A stretch of 44,878 nt of DNA, taken from positions 1 to 44,878 of the forward strand of contig CACXEQ010000029.1 in NCBI GenBank assembly GCA_902766725.1. The letters run 5' to 3'. Origin of the DNA: an uncultured Ureaplasma sp. (GTDB lineage Bacteria; Bacillota_I; Bacilli_A; Mycoplasmatales; Mycoplasmoidaceae). Positions 1-39,559 of this stretch are shown here, piece by piece (the stretch's first letter is position 1; every line of letters begins with the position of its first letter). Position numbers and translations under genes: made by a program. The notes beneath the pieces are model-generated. The model did no database searches, was not told the DNA's origin, and was given only the letters and a program-made list of their open reading frames with translations.

Positions 1-1622
1 GTTTTATTCTTACTCCAGTCTTAAAAACTATGTCACAAGACATTTATTCTAATAATTATTACATGAACATAGATTGACAATTAATGCATGCAAAATATAA
101 AGACAAGGATCAAGAAATTATAAACAAAGTAACAGCTCATTTAGCTACAACTAAAGATGGAAATGCAGTTGATTATACTAATTTTAAAGATGGTCAATTA
201 CCATCTGATAGTTTTCAATTTACTAGATATAGTTTGTTAGCAACCCCTAAATACCAGCAAAAAAAAATGTTTGAAGCATATTTTGATCAAACTAAGGAAC
301 CTGATCAAAAAATTGTTTTTAGTTGAAATAAAGATATGTTGGGGATTGAATATTTTTTACCAAGTGATGCTAAGGATAGTAATTTTAAAATACCAACAGA
401 CTCATATGATGTGCCAATGGCTAAAAATAATTTATCTTTAATAGGTTTACAACTTAATGGTATTAATTTATTAGATTTATTGAGTAAAAAGCCAAATTTA
501 CAAGATAGTCAATCTATCAATAATGCAAACAACGATGCCAATCTAAAAATTGAAGAAAAATTTGTAAAATATTGTAATATTGAAACCAATGCCAATGTTT
601 CTTTTTTTGACAATGATATAAGTAAAAATACTATTCAAAATAGTTTTAGTGCTACTTTTACAAATAGTAACAACATACAGTATAAGGTTGAGACAAAATC
701 AAACATGAACAACATTCAACCTTCTAAAAGCTTTTCTAATAATGCTGTGAATTTTTACAAACAAGTAGCTAATTATGTTGATAGCAAAAAAATTCTAGAT
801 GATATTGAATCATGTCATTGATTAACCAAATTAATAAATGTTGAGATGGCTATTTTGTTTGGTATATTGGGACTCATGATAATATTAATACTAGTTCGAT
901 ATAAATATTCATTTTATAATGGACAAGAAATTCCACCACCTCCTGGTGCACGATATCGACGTTCTGCTAATCTTGATTTCCTAATTAGTTTTACCACTAT
1001 AGTAGCTTTATTTATTATCACATTTTCTTTGTTTATATTGTGAAAATTTACTATTAGTGATCCAATTGAAAATGAGGTTAACAATGTAAAAAAATGGAAT
1101 AATGAAATTACTAATGAATCAAAATCTGATATAAATGTTATAAAAAAAGTTAATGGAGAAGATAAAGATAATTTTAAATCTATTGATAATTTTATGAAAT
1201 ATTATGAAAAAAAATCAAATACTGCTTTTGCATCATATTTTTATTATTTTCATTTTGTTGAACTTTCTCAAAAACAAGGAAATAATGAACAAACAATTAT
1301 AATTGATAAAACAGTTAAAGATGATTATGAAAAATTTAACGAAACAAAACAAAATTGTGGTATAAGTGATAGAAATTTTGGCAGAATTATTATTGGAATT
1401 TTATTAACGGTTTTACTTGTTTGTAGTTCAATTCTACTTGGTTGAAATATTATTAGTTCAACATATGAAGCTATTTCTGATTGAAGACAGTATGTTTATG
1501 ACATTAATAATCAAGTAGCACAAGTTGGTCATATCTTTAATCCCAATCCCAATCCCAATCCAAATAATCCCAATGATGATCCACTACATCCACAATTTAT
1601 TCCTCCAGATATTCCTAATTAA
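1..1622 (+). CDS. Surface membrane protein, C-terminal part (5' end outside window)
   Basis: The reading frame is open from base 3 to a TAA at 1620-1622, with TGA read as Trp. It is colinear with the second half of the complete lipoprotein at 37052-39559: both contain LTPVLKTMSQDIYSNN, then a variable acidic or asparagine-rich region, then membrane segments. Hydrophobic stretches are visible around 846-900, 985-1045 and 1380-1440, so the C-terminal third crosses the membrane several times. It ends in a proline-asparagine tail of NP repeats that the paralogue lacks. Short near-identical DNA islands alternate with diverged stretches between the two copies, suggesting recombination within a surface-protein family. 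The function is not recognised; adhesion or antigenic variation is only inference. The N-terminus with the expected signal peptide and lipobox is missing from this window. Confidence 0.8.
1539..1574 (+). repeat. In-frame AATCCC hexamer repeat coding an NP tail
   Basis: Three perfect AATCCC units are followed by AATCCA and AATAATCCC, coding alternating Asn-Pro just before the stop of the surface protein. Because the unit is 6 bp, slippage would change tail length without changing frame. The paralogue at 37052 ends without this tail. Confidence 0.75.
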
Positions 1623-1706
1623 TAACATGTTAAAAACATCAAATTGCTAGAATAAGTAACAATGTAATCTAGTTTTATCGAGAAATTTTATATTGTTGTA
1701 AAATGA

Positions 1707-2166
1707 GAGTAGTGTTGCAAAAAGTGAGCAATTTTTAACAAAAATTCAGATAATTGTATGTATATATACATAAAATTAAAAAACACTCGAACTATACATT
1801 CATAATATAGTTTTATGAAAAAGAAAATTAAAAACGGCAATAGATATTGTCAAATTTGTTGACATCATTTACAACAAAAAGGAAAATATAAAAATAAAAG
1901 ATAATATAGATGATATTGTCCTAAATATCATAAATATACAATCATTAATAAAAAACAAAAAATATATTTGTGGTCATTCAAATATTTTCAATACCTTACC
2001 CATTTCAAGGAAAATGTCAGAATATGGATATCATCGATTAACTTTCTGAAGAAATACTAAAATGTTTAAAGACAAAAACATTTTTATTCTTGAAACAAAA
2101 AAAGACATCTAGTTATTTATTTAGAAATGATTTTAGTAAAAATACTCACTTTTTGCAACATAGCTC
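1707..2166 (+). mobile_element. Decayed short insertion element 'ISa', copy 1 (460 bp)
   Basis: The element is bounded by imperfect terminal inverted repeats. The left end reads GAGTAGTGTTGCAAAAAGTG and the right end, reverse-complemented, reads GAGCTATGTTGCAAAAAGTG. The interior encodes the remnant of a small zinc-ribbon protein. A 326-bp relative with the same ends and the same 5' coding region lies at 11729-12054 in opposite orientation, and a TIR-only scrap is at 36895-36963. No clear target-site duplication is visible. The size is well below a functional insertion sequence, so it is a dead or MITE-like derivative that would need a full-length transposase elsewhere. Confidence 0.75.
1815..2060 (+). 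pseudogene. Transposase remnant of ISa copy 1 (zinc-ribbon N-terminus)
   Basis: ATG at 1815 opens MKKKIKNGNRYCQIC, the first CxxC half of a zinc ribbon, followed by basic residues. An in-frame TAA interrupts it after NKR, and the same frame continues to a second TAA at 2058-2060. The second metal-binding pair is damaged: CP-x-Y here, against CLEC in the copy at 11760-11939. The position and the CxxC-H-CxxC pattern resemble the N-terminal zinc ribbon found in several IS transposase families. No DDE catalytic region remains, so the family cannot be assigned. Confidence 0.6.
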
Positions 2167-4077: not shown

Positions 4078-4302
4078 ATGAAAAAATTAACAATAAAACA
4101 AAAAAATAAAATAACTGGTGGTAGTTTTTATGCTATTGCTTTAGGAATAGGAATATTAGTGAGTACTTTTTCATCTGCAATAATAAATTCAATTTCAGCC
4201 TTAAAATCTAGTAATGGTTTTACATCATATGTAAATCATCATAATGCTGTTATTAGATTATCACCTGTTCCTAGTAGAAGTTCTATATCTTTTTTTAATT
4301 AA
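4078..4302 (+). CDS. Double-glycine-leader secreted peptide (bacteriocin/pheromone-like candidate)
   Basis: This is a 74-aa ORF with a strong ribosome site (GGGGGAA, 7 nt before ATG). The N-terminus MKKLTIKQKNKITGG has the form of a double-glycine leader: charged, with hydrophobic residues at regular spacing and ending GG, followed by SFYAIALGIGILVS. The mature part would be about 59 residues: a Gly/Ser/Ala-rich hydrophobic helix, then a polar tail with HH and two prolines. Peptides of this type are cut after GG by C39-peptidase ABC transporters in Gram-positive bacteria. No such transporter or immunity gene is recognised in this window. It stands alone, divergent from ackA. An ordinary small membrane protein is the alternative; the bacteriocin-like role is inference. 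Confidence 0.55.
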   Translation: MKKLTIKQKNKITGGSFYAIALGIGILVSTFSSAIINSISALKSSNGFTSYVNHHNAVIRLSPVPSRSSISFFN

Positions 4303-11728: not shown

Positions 11729-12054
11729 GAGCAATGTTGCAAAAAGTGTGCATTTTTTACTAGAAATCATTTCTAAATAAATAGATGTCTTTCTTTTGTT
11801 TTTTATTAATGATTATATATTTATGACATTCTAGACAATATCATCTATATGATGTTTTATTTTTACATTTTCTTTTTTGCTGTAAATGGTGTCCACAAAT
11901 TTTACAATATCTATTGCCGTTTTTAACTTTCTTTTTCATCGAATCATATTTATTATGAATGTATAGTTAGAGGTATTTCTTTAATTTTATATATGTATAT
12001 ATGCATATTTACTGAATTTTTGTTAAAAATTGCTCACCTTTTGCAACATTACTC
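11729..12054 (-). mobile_element. Short insertion element 'ISa', copy 2 (326 bp, MITE-like)
   Basis: The terminal inverted repeats are GAGCAATGTTGCAAAAAGTG on the left and, reverse-complemented, GAGTAATGTTGCAAAAGGTG on the right. The interior, read on the minus strand, matches copy 1 (1707-2166) along the TIR, the ATG region and the zinc-ribbon codons, then jumps by an internal deletion of about 130 bp to the common right end. It sits between the pepA stop and a strong hairpin terminator. No target duplication is clear. Confidence 0.75.
11760..11939 (-). pseudogene. Internally deleted ISa transposase remnant (59-aa open frame)
   Basis: The frame opens MKKKVKNGNRYCKICGHHLQ and continues with CLECHKY, so a complete CxxC-CxxC zinc ribbon is kept. 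It then fuses in frame to the transposase C-terminal tail DIYLFRNDF, which is also present near the right end of copy 1. All catalytic sequence is missing. If expressed it would be a 59-aa zinc-ribbon protein able at most to bind DNA, but decay is the simpler reading. Confidence 0.6.
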
Positions 12055-20043: not shown

Positions 20044-20826
20044 TTATTTAGATTTTTTTGATCAATTTAAGATTCCAAATATTGTAGTGATCAACATGCT
20101 AATGGAACTGGCAATTATTGATAAATCATTTAGCAATTTAGCTTTTTCTGAAAAATCATAAATAGTTATTTTTAATAAATATGTTAATAATAATGACGTA
20201 TCAATAATTATGTAAACATATCAAACCTGTTTGTATCTTTTGATCATTGGCAAAAAACAACCTAAAGTAAATATTAATGTGCAACTATCAAAAAATCTGA
20301 TTCATAATATGAATGGTTCTTTTTGTTTTTCGTCCCAAAATTTATAAAATCATTCAAATCCTTGAATTCATGTAAACAAAACAGATAGTGATAAAAAAAA
20401 TAAAAAATAAATAATACAAATTCACCATGTAGCTTGTTTAGGTTCAATATTTATTTTATTTTCTGAAGATTTAAATCAAACAATTAATGTAAAAGTATTA
20501 ATAACTATGTTAATGATATACATAATCATATTACCATATAACCGATTGTATCATGAAACAAAAACTAAACCAAGTGAGCAAACAATTCCCAAAAAAGGGC
20601 ATAAGATCCTTTTTTTAACACCTGCCATTACAGAAAAAATAGATAAAATTGTCATAATGCATGTAATACAACTAATAATTATCTCTAATGTATCTTTAGG
20701 TGTAATCATTATCATTTGAATAAGAAAAAGAATTATACTAATTACAACATTTGATCATAAAATGATATGTTCTGATAATTTTAATTCAGGAATAAAATTC
20801 TGCTTAGATAAAAAATTTTTACCCAT
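20044..20826 (-). CDS. pnuC: PnuC-like nicotinamide riboside transporter
   Basis: The 260-aa gene is hidden by many TGA(Trp) codons. Six or seven hydrophobic helices are visible. The pattern fits PnuC: SVMAGVKKRILCPFLGIV with SWYNRLYGNMIMYIINIVIN corresponds to the first half (G-x-x-x-x-x-LYG...N), then TLIVWFKS. The second half has an aromatic-rich region, then a helix with FTLGCFLPMIKRYKQVWYVY and IIIDTSLLLTY, as in the repeat of the family. PnuC imports nicotinamide riboside by facilitated diffusion, with a cytosolic kinase trapping it. The assignment rests on pattern rather than catalytic residues. It converges on recA (2 bp between stops). Confidence 0.65.
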
Positions 20827-20894
20827 ATTTTGCTTAATAATTATTTGTTTATTAATTATAATTAATTAATTAGTTATAAAATAAAGGAGTATAT

Positions 20895-20975
20895 ATGCCT
20901 AGTGAATCGTTGCAGGTTAGTGAAACTGACATATTTATTCTTTTATTTGTGTCATTTTATTTTTCTGCTTTGTAA
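20895..20975 (+). CDS. 26-aa leader ORF upstream of the MgtA-type ATPase
   Basis: ATAAAGGAG, an excellent Shine-Dalgarno, lies 6 nt before ATG 20895. The ORF encodes MPSESLQVSETDIFILLFVS and a short aromatic tail ending FSAL, then TAA. It is in the same frame as the ATPase, which begins 24 nt after the stop and has no ribosome site of its own. It may be a regulatory leader peptide, a small membrane subunit, or the original N-terminus cut by a stop codon. The second half is hydrophobic enough to enter a membrane. Confidence 0.5.
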   Translation: MPSESLQVSETDIFILLFVSFYFSAL

Positions 20976-20999
20976 CTAATAGCATTTTACATTTTAAAA

Positions 21000-23699
21000 A
21001 TGATAAAAAAAACAAAGAAAAAAATATTTTTATCTAAACAAAATAATTTTATCATTCAACAAGCTAGTAAATCCAATGAAGAATTACTACGAGATTTTTC
21101 AACAACAAAAAACGGTTTAACAGAAAATCAATTACAAGCTAAAAGAGATGAATATGGTTTTAATACAATTAATAATAAAAATAAATTAACATGATATAAA
21201 GTTCTATTTAATTCATTTGTTACTCCTTTTACAATAATATTGTTAATCATTTCACTGCTAAATATTTTTTTACCTATATTTCAAAAAAAAGAACCAAGTA
21301 TTTCAGATTGAGTTACATTTGCAATTATTTTAGGGATGGTTTTTTTATCTGGGGTATTAAAATTTATTCAAGATTTTAAATCGACTAAAGCATGTGAAAA
21401 ACTTAATCAAATGATAAATACAACTGCATTAATTGAACGCGATGGACAAAAAAAGGAATTACCCATTCAAGACATTTTACCTGGTGATATTGTTCATCTT
21501 GCTGCCGGTGATATGATTCCAGCCGATTTAAGACTATTGTATTCGAAAGATTTGTTTATTACTCAATCAGCCTTAACTGGTGAGTCTGAACCGGTAGAGA
21601 AAACATCAATAGTTTTACCTAATTATTCAACTACATTAGATTGTAATAATGTTTGTTTTATGGGAACAACTGTTGCATCAGGATCTGCATATGGTGTTGT
21701 TATTCAAACTGGAAAAAATACTATTTTTGGAAAAATTGCAAAAATTGTTAGTGATAAAAAACCATTATCAAGTTTTGATAAAGGAATAAGAAAAGTTAGC
21801 AGAATTATTTTGATTACAATGTCAATTATGTGTTTAATAATTTTTCTTATTAAAGGAATGAGAAATCATTTTAGTTTAAACAATTCAAATAATGGCTGGA
21901 TTGATGCGCTTACATTTTCTTTGGCTGCAGCTATTGCTATTATTCCTGAGATGCTGCCAATGATTATTACCCTAAATTTATCAAAAGAAGCAATAAAATT
22001 TAGCAAAGAAAAAGCAATTATAAAAAATATCAACTCTATTCAAACTTTTGGCGCTATGAATGTTTTATGTACAGATAAAACAGGAACATTAACTGAAGAT
22101 CATATTATTTTACAAGAGCATTTAAATATTCTTGGTAAGGAAGATGAATTAGTTCTACTTTATGGCTGTTTAAATAGTTATCATCAAACCGGTCTAAAGA
22201 ATTTAGTTGATAAAGCTATTATTGAACGAGCTAAACAAAAACATGTTATTGAAAAAATATTTGAATACACAAAAGTTGATGAAATTCCATTTGATTTTGA
22301 AAGAAGAAGAATGAGCATTATTCTTAAAGATAAGAATGATGTTAAAAAATTAATTACAAAAGGGGCATCAGAAGAAGTTCTTAGCATATGTTCTAAAATT
22401 CTTCTTGACGGTCAAGTGATAGACTTAACAAAACAATGATTAACTAAAATTAAAGAAAAGATAACTTTTTTGAATGAAAACGGTTTGAGAGTTATTTGTG
22501 TTGCTACTAATTACAAAGAATTATTAAAAAATGAAGCATTTAGTGATGAAGATGAAAAAGATTTAATGTTAGTTGGTTTTATTGCTTTGTTAGATCCGCC
22601 AAAATTGTCTGCCAAAGCTGCAGTTAATAATTTAAGAAAAAAAGGTGTAGAAGTAAAAATTCTTACAGGTGACAATGAAAAAGTTACTAAGTATATATGC
22701 AAAGAAATAGGAATAACTAATCCTAAAATTTTATTGGGTGATGATATAAATAACATTTCATTTGATGAATTAAAAAAAATTGTTGGTGACATTACAATAT
22801 TTGCTAAATTATCTCCTGAACAAAAAGCAATGATTGTAAGAGCATTAAAAGCAAACAACAATGTTGTAGGTTATATGGGTGATGGAATAAATGATGCGCC
22901 AGCCATGGTGGAAGCTGATATTGCTATTTCTGTTGATTCAGCTGTTGATATTGCTAAAGAATCAGCAGATGTTATTTTATTAGAAAAAAATTTAGATATA
23001 TTAGGTCATGGTTGCATTCAAGGCAGAAAAACATTTACCAATATTATGAAATATATCAAAATATCATTAAGTAGTAATTTTGGTAATATGTTATCAATTT
23101 TAATTGCAGCATGTTGATTGCCATTCAACCCTATGCAATCAATTCAAATAATCTTTTTGAATTTGTTTTATGATTTTGCTCAATTATCAATTCCATGAGA
23201 TTCAGTGGATGATCAATTTCTATTGACTCCTAAAAATTGAAATGCTATGTCTATTATTCGATTTATGGTAGTTTTTGGTCCAATAAGTGCAATATTTGAT
23301 ATTATTACTTTCATATTTTTATTTTTTTATTTTGGATACTCCAATAATGAAAGTATCTATTTGTTTAATGTTGGATGATTTATTGAATCAGCTATTAGTC
23401 AACTAATAATAATATATATTTTGCGAAGTAAAAAATGTGCTTTTTTTCAAACAAATCCATCAATTCCAGTTGTTATGTCAACTTTATTCTCGACAGTTTT
23501 TTTAATTTCTACACCATTCATTCCATGAATTAATTATGGTTTGAAATTTGTTAAAGAACAAAATGTAATTTCGGAAATAAATCCTAAGTCAAATCCTATA
23601 TATTGACTAGGTTTATTAATGATTATTGTATGTTATATTAGCATAACTGAATTAACAAAGAAAATTTATTTAAAATTTAATAAAAATGAATGAATTTAG
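21000..23699 (+). CDS. mgtA: P-type Mg2+-importing ATPase (MgtA/MgtB type)
   Basis: This 899-aa P3B-type ATPase imports Mg2+. Domains in order are a basic N-terminus, two membrane helices, and the actuator domain with GDIVHLAAGDMIPADLRLL and the TGES loop (about residue 195). The core helix carries AIAIIPEMLPMII, the (T/I)PEMLP ion-site motif typical of MgtA. Phosphorylation motif DKTGTLT follows (Asp near residue 360), then the nucleotide domain with KGASEEVL, the hinge GDGINDAPA (about residue 630), and six C-terminal helices. Tryptophans in the membrane part are mostly TGA. Translation probably depends on the upstream 26-codon ORF. The gene converges on der with 1 bp between. Confidence 0.93.
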
Positions 23700-37051: not shown

Positions 37052-39559
37052 ATGAAAAACATGTTTAAAAATAGATCTATAAAATTTGATATTATTTATT
37101 TTTCAAGTTTATTACTTACTACAAGTATAGTATGTCCGCTTACTTCATGTGGTAGTGATGGTACAAGTAATGATATTGGTGGATTTGATAAAGAATTTGG
37201 TTTTGATGCCCAAACTTATGATAGATTGGAAAGACAATTTACTAGTAAGTATGCTGCTTCTTTGCTAGATCAAAAAGATATTGACAAAGATACATATATT
37301 AACAAAATTAACAATTTTTTACAAAATGATTTAGCAATTTTACGAAATAAATTATTTGATCCAGCACAAAATTATAGCTTTACAGTTAGAACAAATACCC
37401 TATTAGATTATGCTTCTAAAGAGCACAATATACAACTAAATCGTAATACTAATGTTAGTCAGATTGACTTTGATAATTTAAAACAATCCACATTAGAAAA
37501 TCTTGTTATTTATATGCAAAATAATGGATTTGATGAAAAGGAAATAGCTGAGAAGAAAAACAAAGCATCAATTGAATTTGATACATTATTGAGAAAATGT
37601 ATTAGTAAATATCTTGATTGAGCTGAAGTTTTGATGCACCTACGAATTGATGTTATTGATTTTTGAGCAGATTTAAATGATGAATTTGCTTATTTATCTG
37701 CTTATAACCATTTAAAAGCATTTTTTGATGAATATGAATTTGTAGTAAGAGAAAATAATAATGATGAAATACTATGAGATAGTTTATTAAAAAATCCTGA
37801 TTTTATGGGTGAGAATAATACCGGTAAGATAGACCAAGAAATTAATTGGACAATTGGTGAAGAACAAATAAATAATCTTTTCACTGTTTCTAAAAAATCC
37901 AATGAATCTGAAAAAAAAGAAGAAGAAAATATTTTAAAAAATGATAATTCAAATGAATCTTTTTCTAATGAAGAACCTCCAAGATATAAAAAAAATATGA
38001 TTCCTGGTTATATTCTTACTCCAGTCTTAAAAACTATGTCACAAGACATATATTCTAATAATTATTTCTTGAACATAGATTGACAATTAATAAATGAAGA
38101 AAAACAAAATGAAGATCAGAAAATTATAGACAAAGTAACAGCTCATTTAGCTACAACTAAAAATGGAAAAGTAGTCGATTATTATACTGATTTAAAAGAT
38201 GGTCAATTACCATCTGATAGTTATCAATTTTCTAAATATAGTTTGATGGCTAGCACTGGTTATCAAGAATCGATTTTACGTAAAGCATATTTTGATCAAA
38301 CTAAGGAACCTGATCAAAAAATTTCTTTTAGTTGAAATAAGGATAAAATAGGTGTTGAGTATTTTTTACCAACTGACGCTAATAAAGGTAATGAATTTAT
38401 AATACCTGATGAGTCATATGAAGTAATAATGGCTAGAGACAATCTATCTTTAATAGGTTTACAACTTAATGGTACTAACTTATCTGACTTATTAAATAAA
38501 CATAATAATTCACAAGATAATCAACAAGCTAATAATGCAAATAATGATGATAATCTAAAAATTGAAGAAAAATTTGTAAAATATTGTGATATTAGTGCTA
38601 TTTCTGTTATTTCTTTTGATGATAATTTATACAACAACAATATTCAAACTAAATTTAGTGTTAGTTCTGTAAATACTTCTCAACAATGTAATATTAATAT
38701 TGAATCAGATTTGAACAATGTTGGGCCATCTAAAAATTTTATTAATGTCGCTTTGGATTCTTATAAAAAAGTAGTTAACTATATTGATAGTAAAAAAATT
38801 TTAGATGAAGCTGAAAAGTTACGTTCATTAAGTATAGCAATAGAAATTGAGTTGTATGTTGCATGTGCTACAATTGCAATTATATTCATATGAACATTAA
38901 TTAGATATAAATATCTTTATTTTTACAATGGTGAAGCAGTTCCAGGTCCTTATGGTGGAACTGATATGGCAAGGAATGATGTTCGAAAAAATAATGCTTG
39001 TATATACGTGATAATTATTCTTGTAGTAATTATGTATGTATCTTGAAAATATGGTGTTCGTGAACCAATTGATGTTGAAGTTAATAAAATAAGTAAATGA
39101 AATGATGCTATAACAAATAGATCAAAATCTTCATCTGATGATAAGATAAATGTTATAGATAAAGTTAATGGTGATGATAAAGATAATTTTAAATCATATG
39201 ATAATTTTAATAATTATTATAACTTGAATAAATCTGAGGCATTTGAATCATATTTTTATTATTTCTATTTTGTTGATCTTTTGCAATCACAAAATGATAG
39301 TTCATCAATTGTTCCTGATGATCATCAAGTTAAAATTGATTATGAACAATTCAACCAAGAAAAAATCAAACTTAAGATAGACAATAGAATATTTGGTAAA
39401 ATTATTATTCAAATTATAGTAATCTTTACAATATTAATTCCACTTGTTTTAGTATTGTATTACTATAATATTAAATTTACATATGGTATTATTCATTTGA
39501 GACGTCTTTATTTCGATGACTTAATAATGGACACATCAGGTGGTGCAACATCATATTAA
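37052..39559 (+). CDS. Large surface lipoprotein with C-terminal membrane segments
   Basis: This is an 835-aa protein. The N-terminus MKNMFKNRSIKFDIIYFSSL with LLTTSIVCPLTSC is a lipoprotein signal peptide with lipobox L-T-S-C; Cys33 would be lipidated. A long extracellular polar region follows, rich in Asn, Asp, Glu and Lys, including an acidic stretch near residues 285-315. The C-terminal 300 residues hold three hydrophobic segments (near ELYVACATIAIIFIW, ACIYVIIIILVVIMYV and IIIQIIVIFTILIPLVLVL), unusual for a lipoprotein. The paralogue C-terminus is at 1-1622. An AGGAAT ribosome site lies about 17 nt upstream, with a closer TTAG-rich spacer; ATG 37052 fits the signal peptide. No known domain was recognised. 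Confidence 0.85.

Follow-up and report, generated by a model that had tools for sequence, protein, structure and literature searches.

The short open reading frame (ORF) that precedes mgtA in an uncultured Ureaplasma sp. is probably a regulatory leader peptide that belongs to an attenuator of mgtA translation, with Mg2+ as the presumed signal. The stretch of DNA analysed here, hereafter the window, covers 44,878 nucleotides of contig CACXEQ010000029.1. Control of mgtA through translation of the leader is well supported by comparison with related loci, whereas Mg2+ is a plausible signal and destabilization of the translating ribosome would be the mechanism.

The source organism is a mollicute that reads TGA as Trp, with a genome of 615 kb in 38 contigs (~82% complete). 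The mgtA gene contains 10 such TGA codons, and the leader ORF is unaffected by the code. The MgtA protein of the window scores 907 bits against its family model, compared to a cut-off of 611, and the divergent neighbour scores 61.3 bits against Pfam NMN_transporter, above the cut-off, and 41.9 bits against TIGR01528, just below the cut-off of 42.45. Inspection of the coordinates verified the original prediction of an AAAGGAG-led, 26-codon ORF that ends 24 nt upstream of mgtA in the same frame (Table 1). The same prediction rightly held that mgtA has no ribosome site, a feature that is unremarkable, as a Shine-Dalgarno (SD) match of at least 5 nt is found at only 4 of the 31 gene starts in the window, mgtA included and the leader excluded, and is missing from the other 27. 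By contrast, the 7-nt match of the leader is the joint longest in the window, tied with that of grpE only. An mgtA gene without an SD is ordinary for the window, but the strong SD of the leader is exceptional.

Table 1. Features of the mgtA locus in the window
Feature	Positions	Strand	Basis or remark
Divergent neighbour, PnuC-like	20044-20826	-	Pfam NMN_transporter; NCBIfam TIGR01528
Candidate promoter, TTAATA-17-TATAAT, sigma-70-type	20834..20862	+	Weak; would start the transcript just 5' of the leader
Leader Shine-Dalgarno, AAAGGAG	20883..20889	+	7-nt match
Leader ORF, MPSESLQVSETDIFILLFVSFYFSAL, 26 codons	20895..20975	+	ATG 20895, TAA 20973-20975
Candidate R1, AUGCCUAG (leader start)	20895..20902	+	Sequence reading and sister alignment
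Candidate R2, CUAAUAGCAUUUU	20976..20988	+	First ten bases able to pair with R1, last six (CAUUUU) with the mgtA start
Candidate R3, AAAAUG (mgtA start codon)	20997..21002	+	Would be masked by pairing with the CAUUUU of R2
mgtA, Mg2+-translocating P-type ATPase, 899 aa (code 4)	21000..23699	+	TIGR01524

The leader peptide combines an N-terminus of acidic, Pro and Ser residues, including P2, E4, E10 and D12, with a hydrophobic C-terminus, and a Pfam search with it gave no match. The exact 15-mer spanning its SD and start occurs once in the source genome. Four promoter-like sites were seen in the region, compared to 5.1 expected by chance, and the candidate in Table 1 is favoured only by its position and its exact TATAAT. 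Rfam returned no match in the window at gathering scores, including the M-box (RF00380), and no terminator-like site was found at 20600-21100.

Elsewhere in the window, a 74-aa ORF at 4078-4302 (+), beginning MKKLTIKQKNKITGG, gave no Pfam hit at E<=0.01; we take it to resemble a double-glycine (bacteriocin/ComC-type) leader peptide, which would be unusual for a mollicute. Two large membrane/lipoprotein-like genes at 3-1622 (+) and 37052-39559 (+) are paralogous, with long stretches in common such as FDQTKEPDQKI, the latter being without a Pfam match at E<=0.01. Similar short ORFs lie in opposite orientation at 1688-2108 (-) and 11785-11970 (+), containing FLLMIVYLWYLGQYHLY and FLLMIIYLWHSRQYHLY, respectively, and are perhaps remnants of a repeated element.

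Relatives of MgtA were found in at least 144 of the 320 genomes of the order (E<=1e-110), and 139 mgtA upstream regions (L002-L018 and L032-L153), which are part of the mgtA loci among the matches listed, were analysed. An automatic scan for an SD match of at least 6 nt followed by an ORF of 12-50 codons that starts 70-215 nt upstream of the gene revealed such an ORF at 83 of the 139 mgtA genes, compared to 6.7 expected from dinucleotide shuffles. The same scan gave none of 28 for the control gene alaS (30 mgtA genomes searched, 29 matched, one upstream piece too short) and none of 13 for other P-type ATPases of ~30% identity. The leader ORF is not a product of chance. From the SD-led ORFs, 81 leaders of 17-44 aa (76 distinct peptides) were accepted by eye, with N-terminal resemblance as a guide and some automatic matches dropped; the composition and pairing statistics below depend on this choice, and the 76 peptides share ancestry. 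The SD match is at least 6 nt in 78 of the 81 and 5 nt in the other three, among them L003 and L004.

The distribution of leaders over genera (numbered g) and families (f), g1 and f1 being those of the window, is uneven. Leaders were accepted in 4/5 regions of g1, 22/23 of g9, 9/18 of g17 and 0/26 of g23. Within family f5, which we grouped into f5a (g22, 16/16; g15, 4/4; g43, 1/1; g48, 1/2) and f5b (g25, 3/3; g47, 8/20; g50, 4/4; g42, 2/2; g49, 4/4), they are frequent, and the remaining genera are g24 (0/3), g14 (3/7) and g12 (0/1), which together account for the 81 leaders in 139 regions. The three sister leaders L003-L005, each of 17 aa, can be aligned with that of the window, with ATG[CT]CTAGTGA and GACA conserved. 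Conservation of the ORF in relatives, which the original prediction had put forward as a check, is partial: it extends to these sisters and to 81 regions overall, but mgtA is retained without an accepted leader in the other 58, the very pattern that had been named as counterevidence. These 58 include all 26 of g23, L133 and the sister L006 of the window's own genus, where mgtA is kept and no SD-led leader was found. Because mgtA persists without it in so many regions, the device is common but dispensable.

Some leaderless genes have another known control element. Five mgtA copies of family f4, namely three of g24 and two of the seven of g14 (L011, L094-L097), are preceded by an M-box and no leader. 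Neither the window nor the 15 further leader-bearing loci scanned with Rfam, out of 80, contain an M-box, and Rfam gave no match in twenty leaderless loci of g23 and g17. Copies of mgtA within g14 differ in their control, with an M-box, a 44-aa SD-led leader ORF or neither, as seen in L012 and L013 (first copies) and in L096, L097 and L098-L100 (second copies). In g47 (L105, L120 and L115, L117, L119), some copies have long leaders of 42-44 aa that begin MLGQQEQSGT, and some others have only 6-codon SD-led ORFs (MTYSNV, MNYSDV), below the length minimum of the scan.

At many loci, a segment of the spacer between leader and mgtA (R2) can pair either with a segment inside the leader (R1) or with the mgtA SD/start (R3). 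In the window, pairings drawn by eye are AUGC(C)UAG:CUA(AUA)GCAU for the former and CAUUUU:AAAAUG for the latter. Corresponding helices drawn by eye are GGGAGUGC:GCACUCUC in L142, AAGAAUG:CAUUCUU in L137, AAGGGUGCA:UGUACCCUU in L145 and AGUGCUAAUUU:AAAUUAGCGCU in L146, and, within the window's genus, GUAUGU(C)UAG:CUAACAUAC in L003 and GUAUG(U)CUAG:CUAGCAUAC in L004. The alternative pairing at the mgtA start is CUAAC:GUUAG in L003 and L005. The mgtA starts of L003, L004 and L035 were corrected by hand prior to the pairing tests. The local fold of the spacer proved weak as stand-alone evidence, with a mean z of -1.1, a window z of 0.0 and 11/81 loci whose start accessibility falls within the lowest 10% of shuffles; for this reason, cognate pairing was compared with permuted pairing.

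Comparison of cognate with permuted partners within clades (n=76) favoured cognate pairing for both helices, with z of -10.1 for R1:R2 and -7.0 for R2:R3, whereas R1:R3 gave +2.1, that is, no pairing, as expected. The signal for R2:R3 persists without overlap when permuted over all 76 (z -8.3), and the test is null for both controls, alaS (n=28) and mgtA genes without a leader (n=57). For R1:R2, z is -1.7 in g1, -3.8 in g9, -3.2 in g17, -6.3 in f5a and -6.8 in f5b; for R2:R3, the respective values are +0.4, -5.6, -0.7, -2.4 and -4.0. Three f4 leaders gave no pairing signal in this comparison. Against shuffles, R1:R2 lies at or below the 5th percentile in 32/81 loci and R2:R3 in 20/81. A count over eight pairs in 18 MSIPS-type leaders yielded 6.39 pairs for cognate and 5.94 for non-cognate partners (p 0.0008); the effect is small, and several rows are mispaired.

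For the window's genus, the R1:R2 signal is only suggestive (n=4, p 0.08). Its shuffle percentiles for R1:R2 are 0.02 in L003, 0.00 in L004, 0.245 in L005 and 0.34 in the window, where the best R1 chosen by program is a stretch other than the candidate of Table 1. The R2:R3 helix of the window has a shuffle percentile of 0.11, and in the cognate-versus-permuted test the window copy (L002) ranks at 0.32 for R1:R2 and 0.03, within the best 3%, for R2:R3. Taken singly, the helices of the window are weak, and support for its R2 comes mainly from relatives; they may nevertheless work as their counterparts do.

The direction of control was modelled by folding with a 29-nt ribosome mask placed either on the first fifth or on 40-80% of the leader ORF. 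In f5, the mgtA start is more open with the early ribosome (by >0.05) in 20/41 loci and the reverse in 1/41, with a mean difference of +0.079 (Wilcoxon p = 0.0 at five decimals). Compared to the ribosome-free fold, the early ribosome raises openness by 0.060 and the mid-leader ribosome lowers it by 0.019. Early-open loci outnumber the reverse by 24 to 4 among all 76 leaders and by 2 to 0 among the four of g1, but the effect is absent in g9 (1 vs 3 of 19) and g17 (1 vs 0 of 9), as it is in the controls (alaS, 5 vs 8 of 28; leaderless mgtA, 15 vs 16 of 58). The profile of the window is flat over the first three quarters of the ORF.

We propose a model of four RNA segments, clearest in f5: the leader start, R1 (within the leader), R2 (spacer) and R3 (mgtA SD/start). 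Pairing of R2 with R3 would close mgtA, whereas pairing of R1 with R2 would leave it open. In family f1, where mgtA genes with a leader are without an SD, R2 would be an apparent anti-start element that pairs with either the leader start or the mgtA start. At low Mg2+, ribosomes might falter or drop off on the acidic, Pro- and Ser-containing N-terminus by intrinsic ribosome destabilization; R1:R2 would then form and mgtA open, so that MgtA would be made when Mg2+ is scarce. Of the Mg2+-responsive device originally predicted, the translational control of mgtA by the leader is well supported by recurrence, pairing and, in f5, masked folding, while the link to Mg2+ is one that we infer.

A simpler reading is plain translational coupling, in which the leader SD loads ribosomes that restart at the mgtA ATG 24 nt past the TAA, with no sensing involved. 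The short gap and the SD-less mgtA of the window fit this reading, as does the absence of an mgtA SD of at least 6 nt in all 26 leader-bearing loci of g1 and g9. However, most genes of the window are without an SD anyway, and leaders are kept although mgtA has an SD of at least 6 nt in 9/9 leader-bearing loci of g17, 35/43 of f5 and 3/3 of f4. Moreover, the distance from leader stop to mgtA start varies between 24 and 98 nt, and the leaders are spread over the three frames relative to mgtA (36/24/21, n=81). Coupling would also have no need for covarying, mutually exclusive helices. We regard it as an unlikely account, albeit the best placed of the alternatives to an attenuator.

Analysis of the peptides revealed an unusual N-terminus. 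Over residues 2-11, the leaders contain 14.6% D/E and 6.8% K/R, compared to 6.5% and 25.5% in the 31 window proteins, giving a net charge of -0.78 against +1.9. The N-terminus is net negative in 48/76 leaders and in 1/31 window proteins. A close acidic/acidic or acidic/Pro pair is found within the first 20 residues of 41/76 leaders, compared to 7/31 window proteins and to 8/76 and 11/76 in the other two frames, where D/E amounts to 3.7 and 4.5%. Past residue 16, D/E of the leaders drops to ~3%. Nine leaders of g42, g49 and g50 share the motif [DE]xP[DEH][SP], one of them with Pro at the first place; its codon positions 1 and 2 are conserved and position 3 is free (L131, which nearly duplicates L130, was omitted). 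Thirteen g9 leaders have a common D/E-Y stretch with some third-position freedom, whereas the IPS codons of the MSIPS-type leaders of f5 are almost fixed as DNA, which says little either way about the peptide. Fourteen independent close leader pairs contain no excess of synonymous changes (25 synonymous and 93 non-synonymous, with 28.3 synonymous expected of 118), which indicates that most residues are not individually held. It follows that composition and short motifs are conserved, rather than whole sequences.

The composition also bears on a second alternative, slightly less probable than coupling, that the leader is an attenuator of another signal, such as charged tRNA (Pro, Ser), the state of EF-P or ABC-F factors or translation inhibitors, with Mg2+ acting at most indirectly. 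The N-termini are indeed rich in Ser (21%) and Pro (6%) at residues 2-11, and Salmonella mgtP senses charged tRNA-Pro (PMC8092293). Yet no one residue is common to all leaders, whereas D/E, or else Pro, lies within residues 2-15 of all 76 distinct peptides, with D/E in 71, and in f4 an M-box takes the place of the leader. These points speak against this alternative.

It is improbable that the ORF product is a small membrane protein with an effect on MgtA at the protein level. In its C-terminal half the window copy is hydrophobic, as are most leaders (ILVFMWYC make up 47% past residue 21), but hydrophobic residues are expected from T-rich DNA anyway, synonymous changes are not in excess, and the 17-aa sister leaders seem too short and too charged to span a membrane. 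Least probable, and contradicted by the comparison, is the originally suggested read-through of the stop codon, or a recent nonsense mutation, by which the ORF would encode the first part of an extended MgtA bearing an extra membrane helix: a single TAA interrupts the window frame, and joining the two parts would give a hydrophobic and then basic stretch, but 45/81 leaders do not share the mgtA frame, L003 and L004 have leaders that diverge by 4% and yet lie in different frames, and matches of relatives to MgtA start within the first few residues past the ATG. An artefactual premature stop is likewise unlikely, as sister leaders occupy other frames.

The output of the proposed attenuator is probably translational, because none of the genomes searched yielded a rho match that exceeds the family cut-off. 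The cut-off of 509 was reached in none of 24 genomes of the order, 22 of which carry leaders (of the others, G089 is not an mgtA genome of the set and G056 carries an M-box), whereas 8/14 control genomes passed it. All 24 do contain weaker matches, none above 51 bits, which are presumably other RecA-type ATPases. For the source genome itself, the absence of rho is not certain, given an assembly that is ~82% complete.

Similar arrangements are seen outside the order, given here as plain counts. Among 16 non-mollicute loci, a separate short ORF with an SD precedes mgtA in seven, an eighth ORF (L165) overlaps the mgtA start and eight loci have none. The ORFs begin with MDHPSPQS in Enterococcus aquimarinus, MDNPDAQR in E. 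alcedinis, MDHPDDQR in Ca. E. avicola and MDDSSPQK in Liquorilactobacillus ghanensis, and others are found in two Erysipelotrichia MAGs and in Clostridium intestinale (160 nt away). Among 38 further Bacilli loci, 13 carry an ORF of 8-60 codons preceded by an SD, and we judge about ten of these to be leader-like. In L211, L215, L221 and L226, an M-box further upstream is followed by a short SD-led ORF and then mgtA, and hence the two are not mutually exclusive in general; L241 also has an M-box, its mgtA start being uncertain.

These leaders may belong to a class of Mg2+-sensing leader peptides that is widespread in Bacilli, a possibility that we put forward tentatively. The ribosome would serve as the sensor and anti-SD or anti-start RNA as the actuator in Rho-less, near-minimal cells; across much of the order the class would take the place of the M-box, and it would have only the logic of early acidic/Pro residues in common with MgtL, through convergence or great age. 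A search of open-licence literature by titles and abstract starts gave, among the matches listed, no account of leaders of this kind in either Mollicutes or other Bacilli. If the proposal holds, Mg2+ sensing via ribosome stability would be a general solution rather than an enterobacterial speciality and would persist near the minimal gene set. It would further provide a Rho-free, directly testable model of intrinsic ribosome destabilization and a candidate regulator for many mgtA genes without a detected riboswitch.

Several known systems resemble the device proposed here. The M-box also exerts Mg2+ control in cis upstream of Mg2+ transporter genes, including mgtA of f4, but it is an aptamer that needs no ORF. 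Attenuators of the erm and trp type combine a leader ORF with mutually exclusive helices and use the ribosome position as the readout, but they differ in gene and signal, and the terminator-like site sought at 20600-21100 was not found. The N-terminus of E. coli MgtL contains EPDP, with acidic and Pro residues at its very beginning. MgtL is a leader peptide upstream of mgtA from which ribosomes drop off at low Mg2+, raising mgtA expression (PMC11282234), and it resembles the present leaders in position and in its acidic/Pro N-terminus. However, the route of MgtL is Rho-dependent termination, whereas the helices here involve the mgtA SD/start.

In Salmonella, the 8-aa ORF mgtQ lies inside an operon upstream of mgtB, according to PMC8092293, which also mentions erm/trp-type attenuators. 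The leaders described here differ from mgtQ in their length of 17-44 aa, their position immediately upstream of mgtA and their occurrence in Mollicutes that read TGA as Trp, and in family f1 it is apparently a start codon, not an SD, that would be hidden. Without any claim of homology, both place a short ORF with early acidic codons before the gene of a Mg2+ P-type ATPase, and in both, alternative stems would let an ORF-bound ribosome decide access to the downstream ribosome-binding site, with a translational output (PMC8092293). The direction predicted by masked folding in f5 agrees with the mgtQ model, in which the ORF-bound ribosome frees that site (PMC8092293).
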